DNA of 37,171 bases from a virus. Location: IMG/VR virus record IMGVR_UViG_3300031841_002908, positions 1 to 37,171 of that record, one strand, 5' to 3'. The position numbers and the translations under genes are program-made. The notes beneath the pieces were generated by a model. That model saw only the letters and a list, made by a program, of their open reading frames with translations. It had not been told where the DNA came from and did no database searches. This document shows, piece by piece, positions 17,379 through 31,007 of the stretch (position 1 is its first letter; each line of letters opens with the position of its first letter).

Positions 17379-17768
17379 TTAGTCTTCTAGTTGTTTAGCT
17401 GCTGCTTGTGCTGCTGCTGGATCATCTTTTGCATCATAATCCTGCATGCGCTTTTCTTGATCAGCAGGCAAAGTCATTTGCTGATCTGTTTTCAATTCTA
17501 TTCCGTCTTTATCAAATTGTTTAACAATTTTTTGAATTCGGTTGTCTTGATCGTATGCGTTGTTAAATGTATCAAAAGTAAACTGTTGCGCTCCTGCATT
17601 CGTCATTAAACGATTTAAATCTAAATTTATCACATTAGGCTTAGGATTTTTAATTCCATCAAAGTGAAGATACACAGGTTTTTCATCAGCATCGGCGTTG
17701 CCTTGCACAGTCACAAGAATTTGATAGAGTAGATCTGTATTTTCTCGCAGAATTTCTGCAAAGCGCAT
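17379..17768 (-). CDS. Putative capsid-targeted protein
   Basis: 129 aa, not recognised. N-terminus MRFAEILRE has the shared capsid-targeting-like pattern with a possible cleavage after LRE. The rest is polar, with a strand-rich centre (KPVYLHFDGIKN, NVINLDLNRL) and an Ala/Asp-rich C-terminal helix. It follows the 17770 gene directly. Likely an internal head or virion protein. Confidence 0.7.
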   Translation of the reverse strand: MRFAEILRENTDLLYQILVTVQGNADADEKPVYLHFDGIKNPKPNVINLDLNRLMTNAGAQQFTFDTFNNAYDQDNRIQKIVKQFDKDGIELKTDQQMTLPADQEKRMQDYDAKDDPAAAQAAAKQLED

Positions 17769-17769
17769 T

Positions 17770-18531
17770 TTAATAACTTTTCTTTTTACGAGTAGTTTTC
17801 TTCTTCTTTTTGCCGTAGCCTTCGCTCATTATAGTGCCAAGTCTACGTGAAAGATCAACTGATTCTCTACGTGTGCGGTCTGCTGGCTCATCCCCGCCGG
17901 CTGCGGCAGCAGCAGCACCAAACTCATCGTCTGTAGGTATATCTTCTTCACCTGGGCCTTCTATGTCAGCACCCATGTCCATATCAGGTGCGCCCATTGG
18001 CTCTACTGGGCCGCCTTCGCCTGTAAGTATACCAACACTTGCAACTAGCTGCTCTCTAGATTGTTCCATTGCAGCATATAAACTTTCTAGTGCAGGTTTT
18101 ACAACGTCTTGGTATTGTTGTGCTGTGTCGGCTCCCATTTCATCACGGATGTCGTCAGCTAGTTCTAACATTGCTTTGCTTTGTGCTTCTGCTGTATCTT
18201 CCATCCAGTTAGTAACTTTGTTTACCATGTCTCTAGATGCCATTACTATACCAGCTCTGTCTTCAGCGCCTTCTATTAAAGCTTTGCGATCTCTTATCTC
18301 AGCTTCGAGTATTTCTAAAAACAGTTGATTCTTTTGATATACATCTGACTGTGTATAATCAAAATTATTTCCTTCTACAAGTTTACTTACTTTTTCTTGT
18401 AGAGTAGACTGCATTGCTAGTAGTTGATTCAAAGAATACTCGTCTAACTCAACATCAATATTAAATCTTTCAACAAGATTGTCTTTTAAATTTGTTAAAG
18501 TTGGCTTTTTATTCATATCTTTTATATTCAT
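17770..18531 (-). CDS. Putative prohead core or internal head protein, Lys-rich tail
   Basis: 253 aa. Long charged helices (about 10-165), then a Gly/Ala/Asp-rich disordered part (about 175-220), then SVDLSRRLGTIMSEGYG and a basic tail KKKKKTTRKKK. Helical core proteins with flexible basic tails suit scaffold or DNA-contacting head proteins of T4-like phages. No database family is recognised. LVEG and MSEG resemble possible prohead protease sites only loosely. A late box lies 25 bases upstream. Confidence 0.68.
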   Translation of the reverse strand: MNIKDMNKKPTLTNLKDNLVERFNIDVELDEYSLNQLLAMQSTLQEKVSKLVEGNNFDYTQSDVYQKNQLFLEILEAEIRDRKALIEGAEDRAGIVMASRDMVNKVTNWMEDTAEAQSKAMLELADDIRDEMGADTAQQYQDVVKPALESLYAAMEQSREQLVASVGILTGEGGPVEPMGAPDMDMGADIEGPGEEDIPTDDEFGAAAAAAGGDEPADRTRRESVDLSRRLGTIMSEGYGKKKKKTTRKKKSY

Positions 18532-18555
18532 GGTGCTGCTTCCAATTGTTTAGTA

Positions 18556-18561
18556 TATTTA
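18556..18561 (-). promoter_or_regulatory. Late promoter box (GATAAATATA)
   Basis: TAAATA box 25 bases upstream of the ATG at 18531, at the stop of the next gene upstream. Confidence 0.6.
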
Positions 18562-18969
18562 TCAATTTCTATGTAAAATATCTAACAGTTCAGATACTGC
18601 ATTATCAATTTTTGCAGTACTTACATCTATTCTTACATCAAGCACAGATTGTGCTAGTGGATCTTTTGATTTCTTGCTTGCGTTTTTATAAAACAAGCAG
18701 TCATTAAAATTCTTATGTATAATATTATCTAATTTTTTTATTTGGAAAAGTTTGTCCTCGTGAGTATTAGATAATTTTGCTAAAGTAATTGCTGCTACTT
18801 TTGAAAATGTCTCAGCTACAAATTTTTTGTTGTAAAAAGTTTTATACCCATATTTGACTTTTCTTACGCAAGAACGCCCTATGTAGATGTTATTCCCTTT
18901 TTGATAAGGAATGTTTGAAACATCTACGCTATTCAGGAGCTCTTTTAAATGGGGTATGACAGTATTCAT
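18562..18969 (-). CDS. Hypothetical basic protein
   Basis: 135 aa, not recognised. Segment YIGRSCVRKVKYGYKTFYNKK suggests a small beta unit; the rest is helical and Lys-rich. It overlaps the upstream gene by 41 bases. No signal peptide or membrane segment. Its place in the head-protein run suggests a virion or assembly role. Confidence 0.65.
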   Translation of the reverse strand: MNTVIPHLKELLNSVDVSNIPYQKGNNIYIGRSCVRKVKYGYKTFYNKKFVAETFSKVAAITLAKLSNTHEDKLFQIKKLDNIIHKNFNDCLFYKNASKKSKDPLAQSVLDVRIDVSTAKIDNAVSELLDILHRN

Positions 18970-19162
18970 TTCGCTTTACCAGTATATGTCCGTCTTCTTT
19001 TATTTTATTTACTAGATTTTTACGTTCTAGAGTTTTAAATATGACTTCTTCACGTTCTGTCAAACTGTCAATAGGAACTGGCAATCCGAGTTTATTCAAT
19101 AGATCTTGTTCTTCGTTTGATCGTTGAATCTCGTAACTAAGGATTAGTTCATTGATCTTCAT
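18929..19162 (-). CDS. Small hypothetical protein with tag-like N-terminus
   Basis: 77 aa, not recognised. It begins MKINELILSYE, the shared M-K-x-x-E-L pattern but without an [LI]xE site nearby. Charged helices follow. Its ATG overlaps the preceding stop (ATGA), so it is translated with its upstream neighbour. Confidence 0.68.
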   Translation of the reverse strand: MKINELILSYEIQRSNEEQDLLNKLGLPVPIDSLTEREEVIFKTLERKNLVNKIKEDGHILVKRNEYCHTPFKRAPE

Positions 19163-19461
19163 GTGGCTACGCCTGTGGTTGGTGTAGTAGCAGTAGGCAT
19201 AGTTTGTGCTGTCGGCGCAGTGGTAGGTGTTGTTTGTGCCGGCTGAGCAGCTCTTTGATTTTGTGCTGCTATCACTGCCTGTGCAGCAGCTCTTTCTTTG
19301 CGTTGCAGTTCTGGCAATTCTTCTGTTTGTGCTTTACGTATTTCATCACGCTTGACTCGCACTGCCTCCCTCGCCTGCTGCAAAGCTGTGTTTGCTGCTA
19401 GTACAGGGTCTTGCTCTTGTAGCACATCTTCTTGCTCTTTTAATAGATCTATAACTTTCAT
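19159..19461 (-). CDS. Putative capsid-targeted coiled-coil protein
   Basis: 100 aa. MKVIDLLKEQEDVLQEQD carries the shared N-terminal pattern, with LKE and LQE possible protease sites. Residues 22-70 are an Ala/Arg/Glu coiled coil; residues 71-100 are a low-complexity Ala/Thr/Pro/Gln tail. It starts inside the stop of the very basic 19458-19715 gene. A small scaffold or internal head protein is the best guess. Confidence 0.68.
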   Translation of the reverse strand: MKVIDLLKEQEDVLQEQDPVLAANTALQQAREAVRVKRDEIRKAQTEELPELQRKERAAAQAVIAAQNQRAAQPAQTTPTTAPTAQTMPTATTPTTGVAT

Positions 19462-19715
19462 CTTCTTTTATTCAACCCTTGTGCTAATCTTTTACTTGCT
19501 GGATTAATGCGTTTTGTGCGCTTTGCTCGTCTTGCCATTACCTTGCCTAGTCTTGCTCTAGTAACTTTCATTCGTGCACTTCGTGCTACGTTAGGAGCAG
19601 CATGGCATGCTGTGGGAGAAGAAACAATGCGTCCGTGTCGCTTTCCGCCACTACATCTATATTTACGTACTAAAGTTTGACCTTTTCGTCCCCAAATTTG
19701 TTTTGCTTCTTGCAT
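19458..19715 (-). CDS. Very basic phage protein
   Basis: 85 aa, strongly Arg/Lys-rich. QIWGRKGQTLVRKYRCSGGK, GRIVSSPTACH and the C-terminal KRTKRINPASKR form an architecture I recall from T4-like cyanophage hypothetical proteins. Two Cys (21 and 37) are present. Probably binds nucleic acid, perhaps in the head. TAGGAT precedes the ATG. Confidence 0.72.
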   Translation of the reverse strand: MQEAKQIWGRKGQTLVRKYRCSGGKRHGRIVSSPTACHAAPNVARSARMKVTRARLGKVMARRAKRTKRINPASKRLAQGLNKRR

Positions 19716-19719
19716 TTGC

Positions 19720-19974
19720 TTATCCTAACTGAAATATTAGCACAACGATAGTAGATAATAATCCTGCCATTATAGTGCCAGAGGCTGTAATAATAGTGCC
19801 GATCACAGTTTTGTTATTACGCTGAATAACTTCATTTTGTGATTGAATTAATTCATGCACTTTTGTTACGCTCTCCTCTACCTGCTCTAGTCTACTTTCT
19901 AAAAACTCGTAACGTTGAGCACACAAATCCACATGCGCTTCTAAATTTTCTTTTTCTAAACTTGTAGTGCTCAT
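19720..19974 (-). CDS. Coiled-coil protein with C-terminal membrane anchor
   Basis: 84 aa. Residues 5-55 form a charged coiled coil, and residues 57-82 (TVIGTIITASGTIMAGLLST and the next residues) form one membrane segment at the very C-terminus. This layout resembles XhlA-type haemolysin/lysis accessory proteins. A lysis or membrane-attachment role is possible. Own late box 21 bases upstream and AGGA in the leader. Confidence 0.72.
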   Translation of the reverse strand: MSTTSLEKENLEAHVDLCAQRYEFLESRLEQVEESVTKVHELIQSQNEVIQRNNKTVIGTIITASGTIMAGLLSTIVVLIFQLG

Positions 19975-19994
19975 TGATATTCCTAATGATAATA

Positions 19995-20000
19995 TATTTA
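19995..20000 (-). promoter_or_regulatory. Late promoter box (CATAAATATA)
   Basis: TAAATA box 21 bases upstream of the ATG at 19974; overlaps the stop of the next gene upstream. Confidence 0.6.
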
Positions 20001-20381
20001 TGCTACACTTAGAAAAAGAATATTCTGTAGTTCATTGTCTTGGGTGTAAAAGCAAGGAATAGCAAATTCCACAGTTTCGTCTAGATCTATTAAAAAAGGC
20101 ACTAGATCAAAGTCATTAATTAACATGTCTAGTGTAATAGAATCAGGTATGTTAGGCTCAAATTCAATTACCCAAACTTTCTGTGTTCCTTTGTATCTAG
20201 ATCCAAATTGCGTATCACAATCTTCATCTTTTATAAAAAAATTAATGTTTTCAGGATTGGCTCTAAGTCCAATAGTTTGAATTACTGTGTCGCAGTTATC
20301 TTGTTGAAATGATTCTTTATTATGTCGTCGACGGATACCTGTTTCAGTAATGTCAACAAGTGTTTTAACTTGAAAGCGCAT
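19998..20381 (-). CDS. Hypothetical phage protein, beta-rich
   Basis: 127 aa. MRFQVKTLVDITETGIRRR, then FGSRYKGTQKVWVIEFEPN and DSITLDMLINDFDLVPFLI. I associate this pattern with hypothetical proteins of marine T4-like phages; no function is known. The track start is a TTG one codon upstream; ATG 20381 is preferred. A terminator lies just upstream and a TAAATA box ends 4 bases before the ATG, so the mRNA may be leaderless. Confidence 0.72.
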   Translation of the reverse strand: MRFQVKTLVDITETGIRRRHNKESFQQDNCDTVIQTIGLRANPENINFFIKDEDCDTQFGSRYKGTQKVWVIEFEPNIPDSITLDMLINDFDLVPFLIDLDETVEFAIPCFYTQDNELQNILFLSVA

Positions 20382-20385
20382 CAAC

Positions 20386-20391
20386 TATTTA
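20386..20391 (-). promoter_or_regulatory. TAAATA box 4 bases before a start codon
   Basis: CTTAAATAGTTG precedes the ATG at 20381. The upstream gene ends in a terminator, so this gene needs its own promoter. Confidence 0.5.
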
Positions 20392-20398
20392 AGTCATA

Positions 20399-20431
20399 AA
20401 AAAAGCGCCACTGTAAAAGTGACGCTTTTTT
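20399..20431 (-). terminator. Terminator of the 20452-20808 gene
   Basis: Stem AAAAAAGCG-CACT/AGTG-CGCTTTTTT with one mismatch, 5-base loop and T-runs on both strands. It lies 20 bases after the upstream gene's stop. Confidence 0.85.
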
Positions 20432-20451
20432 ATTCAACACAAATAAGCTTA

Positions 20452-20808
20452 TTATGCTACAGTGATGCTTGTTCCTAGTGTACAAGCTGTGTCTGTACCA
20501 CAACCATCTAGCGCACCAACTCGTGCAGCAATAGAAGCTGCGTCTGAGTGGCTTGCATCCATAATTAGGTGTACAACACCAGTACCAGCGTTTGCACCAA
20601 ACACTAGTAGTGGGTTAAGTTCTCTTAGAATAGTATCATATACAGAACCATAAGCAGCGTCTACCGCACGTAGGTCAACTGCTGTGTTGTCGCCGTTAGA
20701 TGTAGAACGAACAGTTAGCAGGAAGCTTTGTACCTGGTTTGTTGAAATCAGTGAGTTTACCGCATGGGTACCACCGTTAGCTGGGGTTACGTCAAATGTT
20801 ACAGCCAT
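20452..20808 (-). CDS. Small Ala/Thr-rich protein, candidate virion decoration protein
   Basis: 118 aa, not recognised. It starts MAVTFDVTPANGG and is Ala-, Thr-, Ser- and Gly-rich with few Lys, like a surface beta/alpha virion protein. Two Cys (about 102 and 108) lie in DGCGTDTACTLG. It has its own late box, a strong TAGGAGA site and a terminator, so it is transcribed alone and probably made in quantity. A head decoration or major small virion protein is a guess from this. Confidence 0.72.
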   Translation of the reverse strand: MAVTFDVTPANGGTHAVNSLISTNQVQSFLLTVRSTSNGDNTAVDLRAVDAAYGSVYDTILRELNPLLVFGANAGTGVVHLIMDASHSDAASIAARVGALDGCGTDTACTLGTSITVA

Positions 20809-20855
20809 TTTTTATCTCCTAAAATGTTTCAAGACCGGAATGATCTTGTTAATAG

Positions 20856-20861
20856 TATTTA
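20856..20861 (-). promoter_or_regulatory. Late promoter box (CTAAATACTA) flanked by short inverted arms
   Basis: TAAATA box 48 bases upstream of the ATG at 20808. ATCTTG and CAAGAT flank it as 6-base inverted arms. Confidence 0.65.
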
Positions 20862-20894
20862 GCAAGATAATAAAAAAAACTGGTTTTGCCTAAT

Positions 20895-21776
20895 TTATTT
20901 GTTAGATTTTTTAATTCTACTGTGTAGCACTTTAAGCTGCTGTATAGCTGTTGGTCCTGCTTGAATAAAGTCATGAATCATCTTAATGATAGGCAAATAA
21001 CTTTGTATATAATTCAGTGGAGAATTAGTGTTTTTGAACGAACGTTCAACAAATTTGTGTGCTAATACCATGTTGTCGCTGCCCACAAGCATTCTGTAGT
21101 ATGCCATATCTTTAGTAGATCCTGCATCAAAGTCAGCTTGGCTTATTTCAATTTCTGTATCTCTTACAGAACTTACTTCTAAGCGATTTTTGCCTACCCA
21201 GCGAGAAAAGTCATCTATAATATCACTAGAGCGTAGTTTTGCTCGAGCAGCAAACAAAAGTTTGGTTACTACTTCTTTACGCTGTTGCACAGAAATTTTT
21301 GTATAGTTTGCGAGTAATCTACGTATAAAACTATAATCTGATATCTGTGCTGCAAGACTTTTTTGTAGTTCATAAAATAAACTGTATGAATTTATTTTAG
21401 AATCTCTTGGATTATTTTTAATTTGTGCTAGATGTCCAGCAAGTGTTGCGATAGGTAAATGTGTATTACGTCTAACTTTTTTAGCTGCGCCTGGATCTTT
21501 CAACTTATCCATTGCTGCGTTATCGCCAGTTACAAAATATATGAAATTGTAAAGGTCAGTATTTGCAATTTTAAACATTTTATAACCGTTGTAGTCTAAA
21601 GTTTTATCTAGATACCTATTAAGAAAATTATCATTTTCATTATCGTATCGCATTACTTCAATAATACATACAGTCAAAAATAATTTTTCACAGCAGTCGG
21701 AATATGTAAGTGATTTTTGATCACTTTCATTTCTCACCATTCGTGCTTCGTGTATTTCTTTAATGAACTCCATCAT
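20895..21776 (-). CDS. Helical protein with capsid-targeting-like N-terminus
   Basis: 293 aa, not recognised. It begins MMEFIKEIHEARMVRNES, close in style to T4 internal-protein leaders, with IHE before A as a possible cleavage site. The rest is mainly helical (YSDCCEKLFLTVCIIEVM, FIRRLLANYTKISVQQR). Its ATG overlaps the ligase-like stop (ATGA), so it is co-translated with that enzyme. Role unknown; a partner of the ligase/nucleotidyltransferase pair is possible. Confidence 0.7.
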   Translation of the reverse strand: MMEFIKEIHEARMVRNESDQKSLTYSDCCEKLFLTVCIIEVMRYDNENDNFLNRYLDKTLDYNGYKMFKIANTDLYNFIYFVTGDNAAMDKLKDPGAAKKVRRNTHLPIATLAGHLAQIKNNPRDSKINSYSLFYELQKSLAAQISDYSFIRRLLANYTKISVQQRKEVVTKLLFAARAKLRSSDIIDDFSRWVGKNRLEVSSVRDTEIEISQADFDAGSTKDMAYYRMLVGSDNMVLAHKFVERSFKNTNSPLNYIQSYLPIIKMIHDFIQAGPTAIQQLKVLHSRIKKSNK

Positions 21777-22966
21777 TTTATGCCGCTCAGCTTTTGGATT
21801 TGATTTAGTTCAATGCTCTTTGCTTCTCTTTGCACTTGCCTATTAGCAGCAGTGAAACCCGATCTATCAACTAATTTTATAGCACCTTGACTATGATCTA
21901 ACACATATCCTTCGCCGCCTGAAGCATCACCAATTGTCGCTTTAATAGCTGTATTATGTGAGTCAAACTGCTTTATTATATCATTTTTAATTTGCATAAT
22001 TTGATCTACAATTTTCCACATACCACTAAACGCACTTTGATGCTCAGTAATATACTGTTGAATACGCTGCTGTTTAGCAGGTGATACTTTGCTAGTGCCT
22101 AGCCAATTTACAAAATCAGATCCTAGATTTGTAAGACCGCTGTCTACTTTTCTATTAAGATAGGTATAGAAAATCATAGGCAGGTCTTTCATCTTTAATC
22201 TTGTTAAACGTTCGGTATTCAACATATCGTCAATTTGTGCACCATATTGTGTAATACCACTATTTGCATCATTTACATGACTGTCGTTGACATTAGGTGC
22301 ACGTTCAACAGTTACAGGAGGAAAATACAGTACTTCACCTGTATTCATTTGATTGAGTATACTTTGCGGTACAGCAGAATCTTTACCGTCAGGAGTCATA
22401 AACCTGTGCACCACTACTCCACTTTTACTAGCTGCTATGTTTTTTCCTATTTCACTAGATGCATCAATAGAGTAGGTAACAATATTAGGCGTGAATACAA
22501 AGTTACCATTTTGTTGAGGTGGAGTATCAAAATACAGTAGGTCGCCTTTTAAATATCCTATTACATGCTGAGGAAAACTTTTTTCATAAAGGTCGTAAAG
22601 AGCAGACATCTTACCTGCAAATATTTTTTGTGCTTCTGGATTATTTGGGTTACGTCTACTAAACATTGCATTTACTGCGGCAGCGCTTGTGGGCTTACCG
22701 TCATAACCTTTAGCTGCAAAGCCACTTTTATCTGTTAAAACAAAATCACCGTTTTCATTGCGTCCAAAAATTATAGCCGGCGATCCGTCCCACTTGATAG
22801 TAACATCTTTGTGCCTGCCTTGTTCTAAACCTTTAAGCGCATCAACTGCACGAAGTGCACCTTTAGACCCTTCCCAAAAAATTAAATCTTCTGCGTGTTG
22901 TATACGTGCTTCTGCACCTTCATTCAAGGTAAACTTAACATCTTCAAATAGTTCTATAACTTTCAT
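21773..22966 (-). CDS. ATP-grasp-free ligase-like nucleotidyltransferase (KxDG motif)
   Basis: 397 aa. K58-W-D-G61 in VTIKWDGSPAIIFGR fits motif I of covalent nucleotidyltransferases (DNA/RNA ligases). GYLKGDLLYF fits motif III, and E352-G-Y-V with K364 in AIKLVDRSGF fit motifs IV and V. These suggest that it forms an enzyme-AMP link. No OB-fold could be assigned. The leader MKVIELFEDVKFTLNEGAE has the shared tag and a clean LNE/G site. It overlaps the nucleotidyltransferase gene upstream (TAATG). Substrate unknown; nucleic-acid end repair after injection is one idea. Confidence 0.72.
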   Translation of the reverse strand: MKVIELFEDVKFTLNEGAEARIQHAEDLIFWEGSKGALRAVDALKGLEQGRHKDVTIKWDGSPAIIFGRNENGDFVLTDKSGFAAKGYDGKPTSAAAVNAMFSRRNPNNPEAQKIFAGKMSALYDLYEKSFPQHVIGYLKGDLLYFDTPPQQNGNFVFTPNIVTYSIDASSEIGKNIAASKSGVVVHRFMTPDGKDSAVPQSILNQMNTGEVLYFPPVTVERAPNVNDSHVNDANSGITQYGAQIDDMLNTERLTRLKMKDLPMIFYTYLNRKVDSGLTNLGSDFVNWLGTSKVSPAKQQRIQQYITEHQSAFSGMWKIVDQIMQIKNDIIKQFDSHNTAIKATIGDASGGEGYVLDHSQGAIKLVDRSGFTAANRQVQREAKSIELNQIQKLSGIK

Positions 22967-23706
22967 TAGATAGCTCCGGCTAGTTCACGCAAACGAGTTA
23001 TATCTTTGCTTTCAGGTAATTGGATACCTTTTTTTGCAAAAGTTGCTTCTGCATCGGCTACTAATTCTCTGTAATCTATACGGTTACGTAGTTTTGTAAG
23101 AATTGTTTCTACACTTTCTAAGTCATCTGCTTGTGCATTTGGACCAATTAGGTGTTGCGCAATTTCTTGCGGATTTTTAGATATCACTTGATTAGACTCT
23201 CTATCAATCAAGCCGTTTTGAGAACTCCATTTCATTCCTTGCGCAGTAGCAATACTGCTCATCAGTATTTGCCTATCGGCTCCAGAATAAGCTGTACCTT
23301 CGTTAGAACCTGCCATACTCCATTTCATCCATTCTGGATCGCCAAACATCAAATCAGTTTGTACATAGCCATTTGACTCATCACCAAGAATAGGTGTAAG
23401 AAAATGCACACTGATACCTGTCTTACGAATCCATGTTTTTGGATCTTTACCATTCTTTTTACACCAAGCTGCTAATTTATTCACAAGTTCATCTTTTGAA
23501 ACATCTTGCTGATTTACAGCCACATCTAAGTCTCCACTGGTTTCTTTACGTCCAGTAGATCCTAACATAAAATCTTCATGTGGTAAACCTGTAATTTGCT
23601 CTAGCCATTGTAAAGTAGGTAATACATCTGCTTTATTGATTCTCTGTGTTAATATTCTACCTTCAGGATCTTTGAATATGTTTCCGCCTTCATTAAGGAT
23701 TTTCAT
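22966..23706 (-). CDS. Pol-beta-superfamily nucleotidyltransferase
   Basis: 246 aa. G49-S50 and D59-x-D61 in MLGSTGRKETSGDLDVAV, and a third acid D117 in YVQTDLMFG, give the nucleotidyltransferase core. The leader MKILNEGGN carries a very short version of the shared tag with LNE/G. Helical C-terminus. It is coupled to the ligase-like gene, so the two probably act on the same substrate. Which nucleotide or acceptor is used cannot be told. Confidence 0.8.
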   Translation of the reverse strand: MKILNEGGNIFKDPEGRILTQRINKADVLPTLQWLEQITGLPHEDFMLGSTGRKETSGDLDVAVNQQDVSKDELVNKLAAWCKKNGKDPKTWIRKTGISVHFLTPILGDESNGYVQTDLMFGDPEWMKWSMAGSNEGTAYSGADRQILMSSIATAQGMKWSSQNGLIDRESNQVISKNPQEIAQHLIGPNAQADDLESVETILTKLRNRIDYRELVADAEATFAKKGIQLPESKDITRLRELAGAI

Positions 23707-23953
23707 TTTTGCTTTCCCTTATTGTGCGTTTTAGACTGCGATTGAATTTTTCAATGTCACCTGTTTTCAAAGCATTGATAAACTTTTTTTCTAGTTTTAC
23801 GCCTACTTCGGTGCCATACTGATTGTCTATACGAGACATAAGATTTATAACACTTTCTAAAATGTTTGCAGCTGATGCTTCTATCATAGAGTCAGGATCT
23901 TGACTTCTATAACTTTGTAATTCTTCTAAGATGGATCTTGTCTTTTTACGCAT
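23693..23953 (-). CDS. Hypothetical helical protein
   Basis: 86 aa, basic. MRKKTRSILEELQSY, then SAANILESVINLMSRI and KKFINALKTGDIEKFNRSLK. I associate this pattern with T4-like cyanophage hypotheticals. First gene of the nucleotidyltransferase/ligase group. No Shine-Dalgarno; a TAAATA box ends 5 bases before the ATG. It overlaps the next gene by 14 bases. Confidence 0.7.
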   Translation of the reverse strand: MRKKTRSILEELQSYRSQDPDSMIEASAANILESVINLMSRIDNQYGTEVGVKLEKKFINALKTGDIEKFNRSLKRTIRESKNENP

Positions 23954-23958
23954 GCATT

Positions 23959-23964
23959 TATTTA
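23959..23964 (-). promoter_or_regulatory. TAAATA box 5 bases before a start codon
   Basis: CTAAATAAATGC leads into the ATG at 23953. Back to back with a plus-strand late box at 23977. Confidence 0.5.
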
Positions 23965-23976
23965 GCTGCTGTTACA

Positions 23977-23982
23977 TAAATA
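23977..23982 (+). promoter_or_regulatory. Late promoter box (CATAAATAGT) for the lipase
   Basis: TAAATA box 24 bases upstream of the chosen lipase ATG at 24007; divergent from the minus-strand box. Confidence 0.6.
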
Positions 23983-24006
23983 GTTTTGGGAATGGAGGGC
24001 AACCCA

Positions 24007-24753
24007 ATGCACATGAAATCACTACGGGTCTCGGGGAGAGGCCACGTTCTTGCGAAACTATCTGAGTTTGTTTACCAAGAACCGGAAGAAGCAGAAAAAT
24101 TAGTAAAAGAATTTGGTTTTCATACTTTTGAATATTATAACAGAGACGGAGCACAAGCATATAGATTTGAAAGCGATTCAGATGTAGTGTTTGCATGCCG
24201 TGGTACTGAACCAGGTAATTTTAATGATATGCTTGCAGATTTAGATGCAAGAAAAGAAGACAGCGAAACAGTAGGCAAAGTACACAAAGGCTTTAAACGT
24301 GAAGCTGACGACATTTGGGAGATGATTTACGAAGATTTAATTGCTCTCAATGATGATCAAAGAAACTTATGGTTCACTGGACACAGCTTAGGTGCTGCAA
24401 TGATTACTATTATGGCAAGTAGAGCGTGGGCCGATGACGCATTGCCAGATCCACTTGAACTACATACTTTCGGATCTCCAAGAGCAGGCGACGCAGTATT
24501 TGCAGACAGCATGAAAGACAAAACGCATTATCGTTGGGTAAACAATAATGATATTGTTACAATGGTTCCGCCAGCATTTATGGGCTTCAAACATGCAGGT
24601 ACTGAAAAGTATATAAATTCTGATGGCCTTGTAGTAAAAGTAGACTTTGTAAAGAAACTCATGGATCGTTGGAATGGATTAATGGGTAACAAAATGGACA
24701 TGATAAACGACCATACTTGTAGCCTATACGCAAAGCACTGCAAAGCAAATTAG
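24007..24753 (+). CDS. Class 3 lipase
   Basis: 248 aa alpha/beta hydrolase. Nucleophile S127 in FTGHSLGAAM, D182 in NNNDIVTMVPP and H236 in NDHTCSLY complete the triad. HTFGSPRAGDAVFAD and GFKHAGTEKY are typical of the family. I chose ATG 24007 because GGAGGG lies 7 bases upstream; earlier TTG/ATG starts are inside that site. No signal peptide, so it would act inside the cell, perhaps on the inner membrane at lysis, or in the virion. It stands alone between a late box and a terminator. Confidence 0.92.
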   Translation: MHMKSLRVSGRGHVLAKLSEFVYQEPEEAEKLVKEFGFHTFEYYNRDGAQAYRFESDSDVVFACRGTEPGNFNDMLADLDARKEDSETVGKVHKGFKREADDIWEMIYEDLIALNDDQRNLWFTGHSLGAAMITIMASRAWADDALPDPLELHTFGSPRAGDAVFADSMKDKTHYRWVNNNDIVTMVPPAFMGFKHAGTEKYINSDGLVVKVDFVKKLMDRWNGLMGNKMDMINDHTCSLYAKHCKAN

Positions 24754-24799
24754 TAATATTACTGTAACTTATGCACACAGCGCAAAGATCGTTTGCATT

Positions 24800-24826
24800 A
24801 AAAGGGGCTATTAAAGCCCCTTTTTT
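24800..24826 (+). terminator. Terminator of the lipase gene
   Basis: 10-bp stem AAAAGGGGCT/AGCCCCTTTT, loop ATTAA, then a T-run. Confidence 0.9.
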
Positions 24827-24841
24827 ATGTTATAGTTGATG

Positions 24842-24847
24842 TAAATA
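24842..24847 (+). promoter_or_regulatory. Possible late box (TGTAAATAGA) for the four-gene cluster
   Basis: TAAATA box 71 bases upstream of the first small ATG. The T before TAAATA is replaced by G, and the leader is longer than for other genes here. Confidence 0.4.
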
Positions 24848-24912
24848 GAGTTAGTAAAAACTTTTTCTTTCTCTAGATTTTACTACTAAACTTACAAAAA
24901 AGGACTTAATAG

Positions 24913-25071
24913 ATGTTAAACATAGGACGGCTCTTCGAAAAAAGAGCAAGAGACGCTGCCCTTGACCAATATGTAGCGTTCGAATACGGCAGAGAAATTC
25001 GTAGTTTGATGCAAAATGGCATTCCACGTGATACTGCTATTCGTGGAATTCGTGATAGGATTAAAAAGTAA
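24913..25071 (+). CDS. Small basic protein, first of a four-gene cluster
   Basis: 52 aa, helical and basic: MLNIGRLFEKRARDAALDQY, then IPRDTAIRGIRDRIKK. Not recognised, but similar in size and composition to its neighbours, which resemble alphaproteobacterial DUF1127/DUF3563 proteins. AAGGA lies 8 bases before the ATG. Its stop overlaps the next start (TAATG). Confidence 0.65.
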   Translation: MLNIGRLFEKRARDAALDQYVAFEYGREIRSLMQNGIPRDTAIRGIRDRIKK

Positions 25072-25175
25072 TGAAAATTATACATCAAAAAATAAAAAAA
25101 TTTTTAACCCTATTTGAAATGCCTTGGGAAGTAAATTTTCATGGCACAATAATCGGAACTGACAACGATGCGTAA
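25071..25175 (+). CDS. Very small hypothetical protein
   Basis: 34 aa. Basic amphipathic start MKIIHQKIKKFLTLFEMP, then WEVNFHGTIIG. The start overlaps the previous stop and the end overlaps the next start by 8 bases, which supports real translation. No family is recognised. Could be a membrane-binding peptide or a coupling frame. Confidence 0.5.
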   Translation: MKIIHQKIKKFLTLFEMPWEVNFHGTIIGTDNDA

Positions 25176-25338
25176 ATTTATTAAGTCTCTTTTTGATAGA
25201 CGTTCTGACGAAGAACGTTATTTGGCTAATGCTCATGACATTTATGATCTTGAGAATAGGCAGCAAATGTTGAATAGGGGAGAAGCTCCTTTTCAAAAAT
25301 ATTATAAAACAACACTAGATGTATGGAACCATAACTAA
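25168..25338 (+). CDS. DUF3563-like small protein
   Basis: 56 aa. Residues 15-36 (EERYLANAHDIYDLENRQQM) fit the YLAxAxDxxDLExR core of DUF3563, small host proteins common in proteobacteria whose function is poorly known. MRKFIKSLFDRR is basic. It is coupled to both neighbours. A phage copy may mimic a host regulator. Confidence 0.65.
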   Translation: MRKFIKSLFDRRSDEERYLANAHDIYDLENRQQMLNRGEAPFQKYYKTTLDVWNHN

Positions 25339-25487
25339 TGAAATCATTTTGGAAAGGCGTTGGCAACGCAATGAAAGCTGTAGGCGAAGCTAGAGCACGT
25401 AGAGCACTAGCTCAGTATCAACATTTACTAGACTATCACGGTGTTAGTATATCCGATACAGATAATAAGAATAAAAAAGGAGCCTAG
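25338..25487 (+). CDS. DUF1127-like small Arg-rich protein
   Basis: 49 aa. Residues 18-40 (ARARRALAQYQHLLDYHGVS and then ISD) follow the RRxLxxLxxxxLxDxGxSxxD pattern of DUF1127, alphaproteobacterial small proteins, some of which bind RNA and affect its turnover. The usual D-R-x-L-x-D-I is only partly kept. Its last codons lie in the terminator stem. Start overlaps the preceding stop (TAATG). Confidence 0.6.
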   Translation: MKSFWKGVGNAMKAVGEARARRALAQYQHLLDYHGVSISDTDNKNKKGA

Positions 25488-25500
25488 TGCTCCTTTTTTT
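25479..25500. terminator. Bidirectional terminator
   Basis: GGAGC/GCTCC stem with loop CTAGT, A-run before and T-run after. It serves the plus-strand small genes and the convergent HNH gene, whose stop lies at 25500. Confidence 0.85.
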
Positions 25501-26009
25501 TATATGTACTGCTTCCAACTTTCTTGCCGCAGTTCAAATTTTAATTGTTTTCTTTTGTGTACTAGCTCATAATAATCTGGCCTATACGGCCGTCGTAACG
25601 GACTGACATCAGTCCGACTACCTTTTTTAACGTTGCAGCTTTTACATGCAGTTACAATATTAGTCCAATTTGTTTTACCACCTTTAGATATTGGCAATAC
25701 ATGATCTAATGTAAGATCATGTTTAGAAAATTCATTCCCGCAGTATTGACAAGTGTTCATATCACGTAGGTAAACATTGTTTTTTGAAAATCTAGGATGT
25801 GTTTTTCGCTTATACATATCTTTTAACATGATCACAGCAGGCACACGAGTTTCCCAACTTGGGGAACTTACAATCCAGTCATCATACCATTCTAACACTG
25901 CGCACTTATCTAAACACATATATGTAATTGCTTCTTTCCATTCTACCAAACTCAACGGTAGATATGACAAAGGTCTTGCATCAGCATTTAACACTAAAAC
26001 GTCAGGCAT
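25500..26009 (-). CDS. HNH endonuclease
   Basis: 169 aa. C-terminal HNH domain: CQYCGN and CKSCN form a four-Cys zinc site, LTLDHVLPISKGGKTNWTNI holds the catalytic DH and the Asn. The N-terminal 80 residues (VLVLNADARPLSYLPLSLVE) match the family of stand-alone bacterial and phage HNH proteins. It may be a homing or host-DNA nuclease. It has its own strong sigma70-like promoter and AGGA leader, so it is early. Confidence 0.93.
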   Translation of the reverse strand: MPDVLVLNADARPLSYLPLSLVEWKEAITYMCLDKCAVLEWYDDWIVSSPSWETRVPAVIMLKDMYKRKTHPRFSKNNVYLRDMNTCQYCGNEFSKHDLTLDHVLPISKGGKTNWTNIVTACKSCNVKKGSRTDVSPLRRPYRPDYYELVHKRKQLKFELRQESWKQYI

Positions 26010-26029
26010 TACTTTAATCCTAAAAAAAC

Positions 26030-26057
26030 ATTATAACAGAAAGGAAGATTTTGTCAA
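26030..26057 (-). promoter_or_regulatory. Strong sigma70-like promoter of the HNH gene
   Basis: Exact TTGACA (26057-26052), 16-base spacer, exact TATAAT (26035-26030). Leader about 14 bases with AGGA. Confidence 0.85.
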
Positions 26058-26060
26058 CCG

Positions 26061-26753
26061 TCAGTCTACTGCTGCTATACCATCATCGATATATGGATCA
26101 AAATAATCTACAGCAGCTTGGCTTCCTTCTTTTTGTATAATTGCTTTAACAAATTTTTTTGTAAGTGCAGCGTTGGCTTTTAAATTTATTTCTTCATCTG
26201 CTCCGATGCCAGTTTTGCTTGCAACTAACGCAATATAACTTGCAGTGTCATTTTCACTAGGAGGTGCCCATCTTGTAATAATTCCTGTTATAGTATTCAG
26301 ATTATATTTCTTTTGATAATTATACAAAAGTTTTGTAAGTGCACGGACTCCGTTTTGTGGTGTGTCAAAAGTTACAAATGCACCGTCGTTGCCTGTCTTT
26401 CCTTGCCAAGCATCTTTAGATTTTCTTATGTTGCCAGGATTATTATTTCTTACATTTCGTGGCGAGCTTTCGTTTCGTCTACTCTCAAAATCATCTGTAG
26501 GTTTAGGAACATTTAATTTAACACTTAAATCTCCATCTTTTTTGTTATAGTCAGCAGTTTTTGCATAGGCTTGAAGTGGATTAATTATGTCTTGAATACG
26601 ATCAGTATCTAACTGATTGCGCAGTCCTAAAACTTCGCTTGCATCAATAATTTCTTGAGGATTTGTAATGTCCCCATTTTGTTTTGTAATATAGTTGTAA
26701 AGAGCTTTCACAAGTGCCATTGGATGCTCATTTAAAATTTCACTGAATCTCAT
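26061..26753 (-). CDS. Muramidase-like virion protein with capsid-targeting-like tag
   Basis: 230 aa. Residues 100-210 hold RNNNPGNIRKSKDAWQG, FVTFDTPQNGVRALTKLL and TGIITRWAPPSENDTASYIA, the pattern of phage structural proteins with a lysozyme-like fold. The N-terminus MRFSEILNEHPMALV has the shared tag with ILNE as a possible protease site. A cell-wall enzyme inside a head would be unusual; it might act on peptidoglycan during DNA entry, or be only a structural fold. ATGA overlap with the upstream gene. Confidence 0.78.
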   Translation of the reverse strand: MRFSEILNEHPMALVKALYNYITKQNGDITNPQEIIDASEVLGLRNQLDTDRIQDIINPLQAYAKTADYNKKDGDLSVKLNVPKPTDDFESRRNESSPRNVRNNNPGNIRKSKDAWQGKTGNDGAFVTFDTPQNGVRALTKLLYNYQKKYNLNTITGIITRWAPPSENDTASYIALVASKTGIGADEEINLKANAALTKKFVKAIIQKEGSQAAVDYFDPYIDDGIAAVD

Positions 26754-27469
26754 CTTATTCTACCTCTTGTTACAATTGCTAATGCTGCTTTAAAAATTTG
26801 CCTTAGAGTTCTACCGTTTGGTCTTAGACTTTTATGAATACGTTTTCCTAAGAAGTCTTTTCTATTCAAGTACACATGAGTTCTTATGCCTCTTTTCTCT
26901 GCCATTTCTAACACTTGATCTAATAATTCTAAATCAGGCTGTGAATGTTTCCTTACAACATCTATGTATTTTACATAATTCTGTTTTGTAAGTTCAGTGC
27001 CGTCTTTGTACCTGTCAGGTATATATCCTGTTTCGTCGTATTTTGCAACAGTTTGTATTGCTTCTGTTGGCCATACATGAACTGCTCTAACAAATTTTTT
27101 AAGACCAATCACAGGTTGTTTGCCTTCTAGGTCTAACCTAGTTTCTAATTCATCGTCGAAAACTTGTCCTAGTGTAAATGGCCCTAATTTATAGGACCTA
27201 CCTGGTGACTTACCTTGTCTAGTTTGCAGTGCTTGTTCTAATTTTTCTTGATTAATTTCAAAAGTAACGGCTCTGTCTAGAAATTCAGTAACATATTGAT
27301 TGCTAGGTGATCTACTAAAACTTATAAAACTATCTTTTGCTATAGGAATGGCATCTTCTACATTAACTTCAAGACCGTTATTGATCAGTATTCTTACAGC
27401 CTTTTCATAAGTCATAGAGTGATAAAGAAGTTTAAGATCAGACTCGAATACAAATTCTTTACTTCTCAT
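26750..27469 (-). CDS. Possible ADP-ribosyltransferase-like protein, tagged
   Basis: 239 aa. SDLKLLYHSMTYEKAVRILI and NNGLEV, then DSFISFSRSP, then AVTFEINQEKL resemble the strand order of ADP-ribosyltransferase-fold proteins (LYH-x-T, S-x-S, acidic later segment), and DDELETRLD could supply an ExE. Evidence is weak. The leader MRSKEFVFESD fits the shared tag without an LxE site. T4 Alt is a head-packaged ADP-ribosyltransferase, so the context fits. The C-terminus is very basic. Confidence 0.6.
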   Translation of the reverse strand: MRSKEFVFESDLKLLYHSMTYEKAVRILINNGLEVNVEDAIPIAKDSFISFSRSPSNQYVTEFLDRAVTFEINQEKLEQALQTRQGKSPGRSYKLGPFTLGQVFDDELETRLDLEGKQPVIGLKKFVRAVHVWPTEAIQTVAKYDETGYIPDRYKDGTELTKQNYVKYIDVVRKHSQPDLELLDQVLEMAEKRGIRTHVYLNRKDFLGKRIHKSLRPNGRTLRQIFKAALAIVTRGRIR

Positions 27470-27744
27470 TATCTAAGTCTTCCGCGACCACCTGGTAATC
27501 TATCTCTTGAACCGTAATCTTTCACAGGGCCGCCATATGTGGTACTTTTCTTTCTAGTGCCGCCGAGCTTTACCCTGCGCCTGCCTATTTTCTGTGTCTT
27601 TTTAGTATCTCTAGCACGAAGGCCCTGTGCTTTACAACTTGCTTCTGCACTAGCACCTATAGGAGTGGTTTTCTTGCAAGTATCTTTACTTGCTTTCCAT
27701 TCTTCAATATCGTCTTCGTGGATTGTAATATCGGCAATTTTCAT
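27469..27744 (-). CDS. Basic protein with tag-like N-terminus
   Basis: 91 aa. MKIADITIHEDDIEEW, then ASCKAQGLRARDTKKTQKIG and a Gly/Arg/Lys tail. IHE is a possible cleavage site, which would leave a basic DNA-binding body. Two Cys are present. A TAAATA box ends 5 bases before the ATG and there is no Shine-Dalgarno. Its stop overlaps the next start. Confidence 0.7.
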   Translation of the reverse strand: MKIADITIHEDDIEEWKASKDTCKKTTPIGASAEASCKAQGLRARDTKKTQKIGRRRVKLGGTRKKSTTYGGPVKDYGSRDRLPGGRGRLR

Positions 27745-28252: not shown

Positions 28253-28259
28253 AAAGGGC

Positions 28260-28265: not shown

Positions 28266-28286
28266 TTGCATACAGGAGTATGCAAT
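28265..28286 (+). promoter_or_regulatory. 9-bp hairpin with the Shine-Dalgarno in its loop
   Basis: ATTGCATAC and GTATGCAAT pair perfectly around the tetraloop AGGA; the A and U of the start codon are in the stem. mRNA starting about 6 bases after the late box would lack most of the left arm, while read-through mRNA from 28009 would form the stem. Confidence 0.75.
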
Positions 28287-28578: not shown

Positions 28579-29593
28579 TGGTATATCAACACTTTCTACA
28601 AAGCAAGCAAGACAAATTGCTAAACTAGAGTATGCTCAAGCAAAGCGTAAAGGAAGAGTGATAACTGACGGCGGTGCTTTAGGTACTTATGGTACATGGA
28701 GCGACAACGGTACAGACGATGATACAAAAAATTACCATCGCCCAAACAACACTTATGATGCTACAAGTTTGCCTGATACTTATAATGGCAATGTTCCTGG
28801 TGCAGATGATAATCCAAACACAGGCGGCTTAATACTTAAACGTCCTTGGATATCAATTTCAGCTCAAAGCGATCCAGGAAGTATTGATAACAGTGTTGAT
28901 GGATCAACTTTAGCAGGACTACAAATATGGTATGATGGTGCTGATACTAGCACATTGATTCCAAGTGCTACAGACGAAGGACAAATTACACAGTGGACAG
29001 ACAAATCATCGTTTGCTCACAACGCCAACCCTAACGGCGGTAGTGCTAAACCTACATACGAAAATACAACATTACAAAACGGATATGGATATATTGAGTT
29101 CGACGGTAACGATAACTTAAATGTGAATCCCTTTACAACTTTACAAAGTGCAGCAGGTTTCACAGTTTTTGTTGTTGGCAAACTTGCCAACACAACAGGA
29201 GTTCAATACTTTACTGAAACAGATCAAAACGATTTACGTATCAGTGCTGATGGAACTGGTATAACAGTAGGCATGGCAGGTGCAACAGGCACTGTAGCAA
29301 GTGAGGCTAATACAAATTGGGCCATACATACATTAGTTTTTGATGGAAGCCAAACAGGCAATGCTGCAAGACTGATATACAGAAAAGACAAAGCCGCAAA
29401 GACGCTTACTTTTACAGGCACAGTCGCGACAACGACCAGTGCTAGTAACACAACTTTTTACATTGGAAACAACGATGCTGATGATTCAGGTATAGAAGGA
29501 TTTGTTGCAGAAGTTATCTTATTCAGTTCAGCTTTGAGTGCTACAGAATATGGTAACGTAGAAAACTATCTATCAAACAAATGGGGACTATAA
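28568..29593 (+). CDS. Structural protein with LamG/concanavalin-like domain
   Basis: 341 aa. MAANGISTLSTKQARQIAKL begins a form known in marine T4-like phage structural proteins. Residues about 115-341 form a lectin-like beta sandwich: LAGLQIWYDGADTSTLI, ITQWTDKSSFAHNA, YGYIEFDGNDNL, FTVFVVGKL and AEVILFSSALSATEYGNVE, a LamG/laminin-G type layout. Probably binds a sugar on the cell surface or on another tail part. Confidence 0.8.
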   Translation: MAANGISTLSTKQARQIAKLEYAQAKRKGRVITDGGALGTYGTWSDNGTDDDTKNYHRPNNTYDATSLPDTYNGNVPGADDNPNTGGLILKRPWISISAQSDPGSIDNSVDGSTLAGLQIWYDGADTSTLIPSATDEGQITQWTDKSSFAHNANPNGGSAKPTYENTTLQNGYGYIEFDGNDNLNVNPFTTLQSAAGFTVFVVGKLANTTGVQYFTETDQNDLRISADGTGITVGMAGATGTVASEANTNWAIHTLVFDGSQTGNAARLIYRKDKAAKTLTFTGTVATTTSASNTTFYIGNNDADDSGIEGFVAEVILFSSALSATEYGNVENYLSNKWGL

Positions 29594-29596
29594 CCC

Positions 29597-30346
29597 TTGG
29601 CAAGTAACGACAAATATATTAATTGGGAAGCCGCAGTAGCACTTGGCAAAACCAAAGGCAACGAAGTATGGAATATTTTTGGTTATAATACTGCCGTAGG
29701 CACCAATCTAAGAGCAATGTGGTATAGAGCAAATACCACAGACTATGTGTTTCCTTCAGCCGCACAGATAATGCAAGTTAAAAGTGACAACACCAATGAC
29801 ACAATGAACTTGCTAATTCAAGGACTTGATGCCAACTATGATCGTATTAGTGAAACGATTACACTTGCAGGCACAAGTGTGGTTAACACGACAAAAGAAT
29901 ATCTAAGACTAAACACCGCAATCATACTTTCGGGATCAAACGCAGGCACAATTGATATAGGCGATGACTTAGGTGGAACACCTACATACTACAAAGGCAT
30001 ACGTCCAGGTGATGGTCGTTGCCAAGACAGTTTCTCAACCATACCTAGAGGCTATCAGTTTGCACTATATCGTATTGATGCGTTCTCAGCAGATAATACA
30101 GCGGCAAAACCTGCACTGTTTAGAAACTATGTTGCAAACCCAGCAGGCAGGATCCTAAACGTAGCACGAACAACATTCTACAACAATATGAATATCCAAA
30201 GACGCCTACCATTTGTGTATGCAGAAAAGACTGATATCCAATTCCAACTAGCAAGTATTTCGGGCTCACACGAAATAGGTGTGTTTGGAGAAGGTGTGCT
30301 ACACGAAATGGATTTTCAAGAACATCTAAACAACCGTAGTCCATAA
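29597..30346 (+). CDS. Virion structural protein
   Basis: 249 aa. The start is TTG 29597, three bases after the previous stop, giving MASNDKYINWEAAVALGKTK. Beta-rich, no known catalytic motif (ISETITLAGTSVVNTTKEY, RRLPFVYAEKTDIQFQLASI). I associate this type with structural genes next to LamG-type proteins in marine myoviruses. It ends 3 bases from the convergent 30350 gene. Confidence 0.75.
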   Translation: MASNDKYINWEAAVALGKTKGNEVWNIFGYNTAVGTNLRAMWYRANTTDYVFPSAAQIMQVKSDNTNDTMNLLIQGLDANYDRISETITLAGTSVVNTTKEYLRLNTAIILSGSNAGTIDIGDDLGGTPTYYKGIRPGDGRCQDSFSTIPRGYQFALYRIDAFSADNTAAKPALFRNYVANPAGRILNVARTTFYNNMNIQRRLPFVYAEKTDIQFQLASISGSHEIGVFGEGVLHEMDFQEHLNNRSP

Positions 30347-30349
30347 AAG

Positions 30350-30724
30350 TTAACCATGAGATACAACAGTCACTAAATCGCCTGTAATAAGGTTACTTGC
30401 GAATGTGAGAGTAGTACCTGATAAAGAAAAATCAATATTTTCTCTTAGAAGCACTCCATTAAGATATACATCTATTGAATCAATATCATAAGCGGTTGTA
30501 AGTGTTACTGTAGCTTGGCCGTCTGTGACAGTTGGATATTCTTTTGTACGTGAAGATGCCCCGGAAAAACTTGCTATAGTTGTTCCGCCCGGTGTTACAC
30601 CATCTGATATCCTAATAGTGTTAGTAATAGAGTCATACCATATCCTGCCTTTTTGGCCGATGCGAGTGTTACCGTCCCCTACATTACGTCTACTTGAAAA
30701 TATATCTTGTGTAAAGTCTGACAC
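30350..30724 (-). CDS. Short fibre-module protein
   Basis: 124 aa, GTG start at 30724 with GAGG upstream. Residues 22-48 (KGRIWYDSITNTIRISDG) resemble an Mtd-type start. Residues 61-124 (EYPTVTDG, DSIDVYLNGVLLRENIDFSL, TGDLVTVVSHG) are one copy of the module that occurs three times in the 31135-33837 fibre on the other strand. Probably a small fibre or chaperone-like attachment subunit. Confidence 0.72.
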   Translation of the reverse strand: MSDFTQDIFSSRRNVGDGNTRIGQKGRIWYDSITNTIRISDGVTPGGTTIASFSGASSRTKEYPTVTDGQATVTLTTAYDIDSIDVYLNGVLLRENIDFSLSGTTLTFASNLITGDLVTVVSHG

Positions 30725-30734
30725 CGCAGTTACC

Positions 30735-31007
30735 TCACTGCTGACTTCTCGGATCGCCTACTTCTTGTTCAGCTTCTTCGTAACCATGGTCTGATTGATC
30801 TGCTAGCAATTTATCAATCACTCCGCTGCGTTTTCCGTTTGCGGCTTTTGCAAGTTCTGTATTTTGTTGCAAAGGCGGAGTAAACACAGGATTCTGGTCA
30901 AGTTCATCATTATCAGTGTCACTATTGCCCATATCAATTTCAGGCTCACCGTCCCCATTAATTTTTATGTTTATGGGTATGTTAATTGTAAACTCTCGTG
31001 CTCGCAT
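30735..31007 (-). CDS. Acidic phage protein with tag-like N-terminus
   Basis: 90 aa. MRAREFTINIPINIKINGDG, an acidic middle (EIDMGNSDTDNDELD) and VFTPPLQQNTELAKAANGKR. I associate the PPLQQ segment with T4-like cyanophage proteins of unknown job. The start fits M-R-x-x-E-F of the shared tag. AGAGG and a late box lie upstream. Confidence 0.72.
   Translation of the reverse strand: MRAREFTINIPINIKINGDGEPEIDMGNSDTDNDELDQNPVFTPPLQQNTELAKAANGKRSGVIDKLLADQSDHGYEEAEQEVGDPRSQQ

Follow-up and report, generated by a model that had tools for sequence, protein, structure and literature searches.

The window analysed here, a stretch of 37,171 bases from a marine relative of phage T4 that forms the virus record IMGVR_UViG_3300031841_002908 (38% guanine plus cytosine (GC); 54 curated genes analysed), encodes a group of proteins that begin alike and have different bodies. 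Their shared amino terminus, called the tag below, is very probably a capsid-targeting sequence of the kind carried by the internal head proteins of phage T4, placed in front of a large and swappable cargo. The T4 internal protein IPIII has targeting positions at residues 4 and 7 and processing positions at residues 8 and 10, and the site of gp21 is L/I-x-E (PMC9026906; statements from the literature refer throughout to the available parts of the cited papers). Together with starts in the T4 record (MKTYQEFIAEA, MKTFKEFTST and, for gp24, MAKINELLRES), these data bear out the remark in an earlier note, made from the letters of the window alone, that T4 internal proteins carry such a peptide with an [LI]xE site for gp21. 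The start recurs as a module in related phages, a cleavage motif is linked to it and in one case the body behind it has been cleanly swapped. The virion proteome of a relative, S-CREM2, supports the presence of tagged proteins in virus particles; that of a second, S-SZBM1, shows no association.

The shared start in the window

The earlier note listed twelve starts, all of which have open frames on one strand or the other, and described them by the motif M-[KR]-x-x-[ED]-[LIF] or a close variant. Ten fit it letter for letter, and those at 21776 (MMEFIKEIHEAR) and 23706 (MKILNEGG) are looser variants. The motif occurs at 10 of the 54 window starts versus 1.7 in column shuffles (0 of 20,000 reach this), a count not used as evidence because the motif was derived from the same starts that it scores. 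Column shuffles, which preserve the bias at each position, provide the chance expectation for all counts of tags. Two other definitions were applied. The core motif (M, one or two residues, then hydrophobic-x-[ED]-hydrophobic) was picked after the starts of relatives had been inspected and is not blind; it was not fitted to the window starts, and the positions behind the tag played no part in its definition. The strict motif, derived from T4, is hydrophobic-x-x-hydrophobic-[LIVMF]-x-E. The core is present at 8 of 54 window starts versus 4.15 expected (466 of 20,000 shuffles reach this) and the strict motif at 3 of 54 versus 1.3 (2634 of 20,000). The window alone is thus weak to moderate evidence for the claim that the motif is commoner at starts than at random amino termini of this genome, and would not by itself sustain it. 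Most of the core-tagged genes are minus-strand genes of the interval 17379-27744, which is situated on one side of a ribonucleotide reductase gene (9419-11731, by Pfam); 7 of the 17 minus-strand genes of this interval have the core versus 1 of the 37 other genes (one-sided Fisher test, 0.0007).

An early [LI]xE, which most of the twelve starts were said to have, follows eight of them (1504, 17768, 19461, 21776, 22966, 23706, 26753 and 27744). It was not found behind 28285, 31007 or 27469, the last having VFE instead, and the sole match in 19162 falls inside the tag. Two of the listed starts are false positives, judged by the starts of their relatives. In the family of 31007, MRA[KRH]EF.INIPI.IK is a conserved body start that no [LI]xE follows; remote relatives of 28285 begin MDTSELIKRLL (tblastn of 28285 in phages gave no match). 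Note that the strongly conserved family of 30735-31007 (start MRA[KR]EFTINIPINIK; relatives in L123, L128 and L131) is present in contigs of more than 350 kb, near structural-looking genes. One member of a tagged family, at 18531, was absent from the list. About nine of the twelve proteins do share a real, modular start, and it is the phages related to the window that settle this, since their excess of tags is strong and that of the window alone is weak.

The tag in related phages

A near-identity search with 25 kb of the window against phage records gave no match. Relatives of its DUF6267 protein were found in 50 phage records, mostly of Synechococcus, Prochlorococcus and other marine phages, all below 60% identity, and a DUF6267 scan yielded a sample of 80 related loci. 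These loci, the window and parts of T4 and HTVC008M were processed with a simple gene caller and loose clustering into 1715 proteins and 395 families. Tags were counted on one protein per family, in the 215 families without a window member. The motif search in related genomes against shuffled controls that the earlier note had proposed gave a clear excess: 39 of the 215 families carry the core versus 14.8 expected, 23 carry the motif of the earlier note versus 5.4 and 13 the strict motif versus 3.1 (0 of 3000 shuffles reach the count in each case). Bacterial loci served as a control (80 loci, mostly of Pelagibacteraceae and other Alphaproteobacteria, with 30% GC and thus more AT-rich than the window). 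They show no clear excess of the core (17 of 428 families versus 13.2; 152 of 1000 shuffles reach this) and none of the strict motif (2 of 428 versus 3.0).

Among families with at least three distinct starts, some are nearly all tagged (25/27, 42/51 and 22/28), many are never tagged and a few lie between. The fetched part of T4 has the core at 9 of 72 starts versus 3.6 expected and the strict motif at 4 versus 1.1; the fetched part of HTVC008M has the core at 5 of 68 versus 1.7 and the strict motif at 1 versus 0.4. Tagged genes of HTVC008M are found between the primase-helicase gene and the primase and nrdA genes, and the cytidylyltransferase gene of S-SZBM1 and S-CREM2 and its neighbours are close to primase and nrdA.

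Some individual cases in the related loci deserve mention. Gene 3736-4290 of L103 has the T4-type start MKNFADYLTES and adjoins a relative of the possible ADP-ribosyltransferase described below. L037 (8038-14034) and its relatives encode a tagged protein of 1999 residues that starts MKFNDIKTLEHF and has no Pfam match. The apparent tag of L009 14420-14962, whose product is presumably haem-oxygenase-like, is probably due to chance.

The linked cleavage motif

In families without a window member, [LI]xE falls within residues 7-27 of 19 of 38 tagged families versus 8.9 in shuffles of those residues (0 of 500 reach this), and of 26 of 177 untagged families versus 26.8, which is no enrichment. When window families are counted too, the mean numbers are 26.5 of 46 versus 11.7 for tagged and 35.5 of 224 versus 37.1 for untagged families. 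The link was not found for the tagged starts of the bacterial loci (4 of 15 versus 3.4).

In three families the position of the site can be followed relative to the body. The [LI]xE of DUF6267 proteins ends one to three residues before the anchor ARIxHAED in 24 of 27 distinct starts, with VxE in the other three, while anything between 12 and 53 residues may precede the anchor. On a recount the anchor was present in 64 of 81 members, with the core tag on all 24 distinct 12-residue starts among them; the 17 anchorless members include fusions behind a nucleotidyltransferase, anchor variants, and late or different starts. The nucleotidyltransferase family has [LI]xE directly before GGN[IV]FK in 13 of 16 distinct starts; the remaining three have VLE. 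This anchor is missing from 22 of 75 members, some through a later called start, and four distinct members without it carry the full tag and site ahead of another body start. In the family of 20895-21776 the site stands directly before AR[MLI] in all 44 members that have this anchor (25 of 69 are without it).

Six cyanophage DUF6267 proteins, of S-WAM1, P-HM1, P-TIM40, P-RSM6, S-PM2 and S-SZBM1, start at the body and are untagged, and that of S-SZBM1 is absent from the 30 listed virion proteins of this phage. The DUF6267 body is preceded by MMKFTQFLAE in Stenotrophomonas phage DLP_6 and by MYNDLLVE in HTVC008M.

Cargo swap behind the tag

Compared in steps of 60 bases, contig L003 and the window are 88-100% identical on either flank of gene 26061-26753. 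They agree to the end of 26750-27469 and for 14 bases beyond the upstream stop codon, across ATGAGATTCAGTGAAATT, which encodes MRFSEI; behind these codons the identity is lost over the whole body, to return near 26000. The window has a 230-residue transglycosylase of the gp16 type in this place and L003 a 222-residue protein with an SLT transglycosylase domain. Residues 1-9 are the only match between the two proteins by blastp, and [LI]xE is kept at residues 7-9 on both sides of the swap (LNE in the window, ITE in L003). This swap and the many tagged families agree with the statement of the earlier note that the bodies behind the shared tag are unrelated. In neighbouring slots the more distant L009 encodes a tagged protein with peptidoglycan-binding and phage-lysozyme domains and a tagged one with LysM and tail-lysozyme domains. 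A slot in L037, L051 and L052 was considered as a second swap and rejected; its bodies are distant relatives by blastp, so that a single swap is claimed.

Virion proteomes of relatives

The annotated starts of all 219 genes of S-CREM2 were compared with the published mass spectrometry of its virions (PMC10665884). Note that the starts of the detected proteins had been inspected before this test; the strict motif itself follows T4. It is present on 5 of 52 detected versus 3 of 167 undetected proteins (one-sided Fisher test, 0.020), and on 5 of 28 versus 3 of 167 when the 24 proteins named as structural by the authors are left out (0.0018). The five are the S-adenosylmethionine (SAM) hydrolase gp6 (MKDFDSFLEE), gp13 (MKDLHSFLTE), the APH-like kinase gp14 (MKRFDAFLTE), gp136 (MQTFSMFFSE) and the cytidylyltransferase gp154 (MKNFSSFLTE). 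Most detected proteins are untagged, as expected for parts of the shell and tail. A previous count with the simple gene caller (3 of 50 versus 1 of 172, P = 0.037) had overlooked gp6 and gp14 at their annotated starts and is superseded. The authors considered regulatory proteins in these virions as possible carry-over (PMC10665884).

Enzymes of similar kind are reported from other cyanophage virions: a putative cytidylyltransferase in S-SM1 (PMC3037559), an NMNAT-like protein in S-SCSM1 (PMC9602691) and, as the one detected enzyme of S-SZBM1, the cytidylyltransferase gp140, which starts MRFRQFIIEA. The cytidylyltransferase of P-HM1 is untagged. S-CREM2 gp12 (L088 7704-10313, annotated as a Cas9-like virion protein) shows a tag-like LRFASFMAEAA at residues 17-27, after a leader of 16 residues; L17 is encoded by CTG, and the stretch may be either an internal tag or the sign of a misplaced start.

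Comparison with known systems

The capsid-targeting sequences of T4 IPI, IPII and IPIII are likewise short and amino-terminal, with a pair of hydrophobic residues three apart and [LI]xE after them (PMC3012670, PMC9026906), and the unrelated, often basic bodies of these proteins have the tag alone in common. The tags described here differ in usually having one residue fewer before the first hydrophobic and in favouring E or D before the second; they are also borne by many more cargo families, among them enzymes with recognisable domains, and there is often a spacer between tag and site. The packaged ADP-ribosyltransferase Alt of T4 has a short propeptide (start MELITEL, like the MKILNE of 22966-23706) whose removal has been reported (PMC9026906). 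The product of 26750-27469 may share its enzyme class; no sequence similarity was found between the two, and the fold comes from a low-confidence model. T7 gp16 is an internal virion protein with the same transglycosylase domain as the product of 26061-26753. Proteins of this type are far longer (PDB 9vvp_L has 1295 residues) than the 230 residues of the latter, which carries its own T4-style tag. The cyanophage virion enzymes (cytidylyltransferase, SAM hydrolase, kinase) resemble the proteins discussed here in the location of the cytidylyltransferase module near primase and nrdA and in the T4-type starts of S-CREM2 gp6, gp14 and gp154 and S-SZBM1 gp140; they differ in being other cargo.

Lineages differ in the residue before the second hydrophobic. 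Of the 24 strict families in the window and its relatives, 21 have E or D there, though the strict motif ignores this position; the five detected S-CREM2 proteins have S, S, A, M and S (two-sided Fisher test, 0.0005). Tag and scaffold core may co-evolve, if the tag docks on the core as in T4. A literature search found no report of a targeting sequence from marine phages or from cyanophages (in titles and abstracts among the matches listed, with incomplete coverage). For T4-like phages at large, it has been proposed that the capsid-targeting sequence lets them take up various proteins (PMC9026906).

Proteins of the window and their possible functions

The genes below lie on the minus strand unless stated otherwise; a hyphen in a start follows the candidate cleavage site. 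Gene 17379-17768 codes for a protein of 129 residues with a full T4-type tag and site (MRFAEILRE-N), a strict match. Its relatives begin MRFAEILRE, MRIAELLRE or MKISEVD; other family members are called from later starts, so that a tag shows on 6 of the 22 distinct called starts. Gene 17770-18531 codes for 253 residues with a core tag (MNIKDMNKKP), which 25 of the 27 distinct starts in its family share; the protein is similar to phrog_14154 'virion structural protein' (E 5e-8). The tag of the 77-residue product of 18929-19162 (MKINELILS; compare MAKINELLRES of T4 gp24) has no E where cleavage would be expected. Tags occur on 22 of the 28 distinct starts of this family, and the protein weakly matches phrog_16215 of the same description (E 7e-4). 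In the PHROG scan, which covered 20 window proteins, the product at 23693, untagged, also matched a virion structural protein family. A full tag with site, again a strict match, is found on the 100-residue product of 19159-19461 (MKVIDLLKE-Q), whose slot in related phages is filled by proteins starting MKVTDLINEQ, MKVTDLVQEQ or MKILDLLSEN. The very basic protein of 85 residues encoded by 19458-19715 is untagged (MQEAKQIW) in a family with 42 of 51 distinct starts tagged; some related phages have two tagged copies of it side by side. Gene 20895-21776 codes for 293 residues with a variant tag and site (MMEFIKEIHE-ARM).

The DUF6267 protein (21773-22966, 397 residues, ligase-like; Pfam E 2e-37) starts MKVIELFEDVKFTLNE-GAE, with tag, spacer and site. 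Invariant in it are K58-W-D-G, EGYV and KLV, in which KxDG, EG and K correspond to ligase motifs I, IV and V. The 50 structural matches listed comprise 46 entries titled as ligases and four end-joining complexes at Z 8.4-5.9, values that can reflect merely a common arrangement; Foldseek gave nothing under E 0.04. The next protein (22966-23706, 246 residues) starts MKILNE-GGN, with the site and no clear tag, and is nucleotidyltransferase-like by the conserved LG[ST]TG...SGD[LIM]D...QTD, motifs presumably of the polymerase-beta kind. The adjacency of the two suggests repair of cut RNA or DNA, perhaps directed against host nucleases.

The 230-residue transglycosylase of the T7 gp16 kind (26061-26753) has a full tag with site (MRFSEILNE-H). 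It matches the PHROG category endolysin / head and packaging (E 5e-49) and PDB 9vvp_L (E 1e-29). It is 46-51% identical over the domain to proteins of 18 of the best 20 of 800 matching phage records, several bearing the annotation internal virion protein, and its probable role is to cut peptidoglycan during entry. The 239-residue product of 26750-27469 has a variant tag (MRSKEFVFE-S), its relatives begin MIIKEILLEN and MRVKEVIIEG, and K4, E5 and E9 are invariant across the three distinct sequences. An ADP-ribosyltransferase fold is possible for it from a poor model (mean predicted local distance difference test score 57.5, from 3 sequences) with weak fold matches (Z at most 6.7), the first 22 listed being KptA/Tpt1, DarT or CC0527 entries. 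PDB sequence searches with the DUF6267 protein, the nucleotidyltransferase and 27469 gave nothing convincing. The basic 91-residue product of 27469-27744 has a tag with site (MKIADITIHE-D; core match and IHE), and its slot is occupied in relatives by starts MKIVDITIHED and MRIDDLLLDE. At the other end, gene 2-1504, cut by the window end, codes for at least 501 residues starting MKFTDFSTPRFLLE-Q (core match and LLE); one near-identical relative was its only one in the scan, and HTVC008M has a protein starting MKTFTDFST. A PADLOC scan of six proteins gave one weak hit.

Two genes of other kinds stand in or beside the tagged module. A class 3 lipase gene (24007-24753, plus strand; Pfam E 2e-23; 58 family members in the loci) lies within it in opposite orientation, and a gene for a NifU-like iron-sulphur protein (16997-17338, minus strand; Pfam E 7e-25; 24 family members) next to it.

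Proposed mechanism and alternative explanations

If the tag is a capsid-targeting sequence, the hydrophobic residues at positions 3 and 6 in the window, like those at 4 and 7 in T4, would dock the protein on the scaffolding core during prohead formation, a prohead protease of the T4 gp21 type would cut behind the [LI]xE close by, and the freed body would be enclosed with the DNA, most of the cargo entering the host at infection. The region beside nrdA would be a cargo bay, its contents changing between phages because the tag would act on any protein joined to it; here they would comprise peptidoglycan cutters, the ligase-like enzyme and the nucleotidyltransferase, the possible ADP-ribosyltransferase and small basic proteins. 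Packaging, docking, cutting, injection and functions in the host are what we infer for the phage of the window, injection by analogy with T4 and from the kinds of cargo. The earlier proposal of a T4-like targeting tag has good support from the enrichment in relatives and not in bacterial genes, the [LI]xE linked to the tag, the place of this site at the body junction, the swap and the proteome of one relative; a second proteome gave no association, and the proposal does not extend to 28285 and 31007.

A number of observations weigh against targeting to the head. The statistics of the window by itself are modest, and the core motif of S-CREM2 proteins shows no association with their detection in virions (2 of 52 versus 9 of 167), as the core requires E or D and so misses the proteins of that phage. 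The strict motif shows no association in S-SZBM1 (1 of 29 detected versus 4 of 198 others, P = 0.50; PMC9146016, with the simple gene caller, which found 29 of the 30 listed virion proteins). No gp21, gp22 or gp23 was found and the window contains no head genes. A search for the gp21 and gp23 families in 18 parent contigs gave 0 matches, but control genomes were equally silent (HTVC008M is annotated with both). Untagged members occur within tagged families, including 19458-19715, and the loose clustering left some distant relatives counted as separate families. T4 gp24, a vertex shell protein, starts similarly, so that the tag alone is no proof of injection.

One alternative is that there is no sorting tag, and that a bias near the start in AT-rich genomes (M-K, A-rich early codons, amphipathic first helices), combined with the reading of many starts, produced the resemblance. 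The small excess of both motifs in the window and the core result in S-CREM2 agree with this. It is nevertheless highly improbable, as shuffles that keep the bias give 14.8 in relatives versus the observed 39, which speaks strongly against it, AT-rich bacterial genes have no clear excess, and the linked [LI]xE, its placement where the body begins and the swap right behind the tag are left unexplained. Alternatively, the tag may be a modular docking peptide for another place, such as the host membrane, a part of the tail or neck, or the replication complex, with [LI]xE as a helix feature. In its favour, the fragment carries no head gene, cut termini were not seen, and several tagged bodies are peptidoglycan enzymes that could act from the tail. 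This too is decidedly unlikely, since the tag fits the T4 head form at both the targeting and the processing positions, S-CREM2 proteins with the strict form are in virions and what is enriched is the protease motif itself. A narrower alternative holds that only the first residues are a tag and that the [LI]xE by the body belongs to the fold of DUF6267 and its neighbour and is kept for structure. The site does adjoin strongly conserved residues in both families. This is unlikely for several reasons: residues 1-20 are predicted disordered in the DUF6267 model, which is mostly well ordered afterwards, the six cyanophage versions begin at the body with neither site nor tag, and the [LI]xE enrichment spans many unrelated bodies.

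Implications

Beyond the window, it is a serious though tentative possibility, somewhat short of a probable one, that marine T4-like phages share a general address label for the head, in lineage dialects that follow their own scaffold core, and a fast-changing cargo bay whose contents (a ligase with a nucleotidyltransferase for the repair of RNA or DNA ends, a possible ADP-ribosyltransferase, interchangeable peptidoglycan cutters) are delivered ready-made before phage genes are read. If so, this label would also account for the puzzling enzymes of cyanophage virions, giving a reason for the presence there of the SAM hydrolase, kinase and cytidylyltransferase, left open as possible carry-over (PMC10665884). 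A cut amino terminus is the direct prediction for each tagged protein. The proteins that enter with phage DNA are known for few phages because this needs virion proteomics of cultured phages; if the tag marks proteins for packaging, sequence alone would suffice to predict which effectors are packaged by abundant uncultured marine phages.

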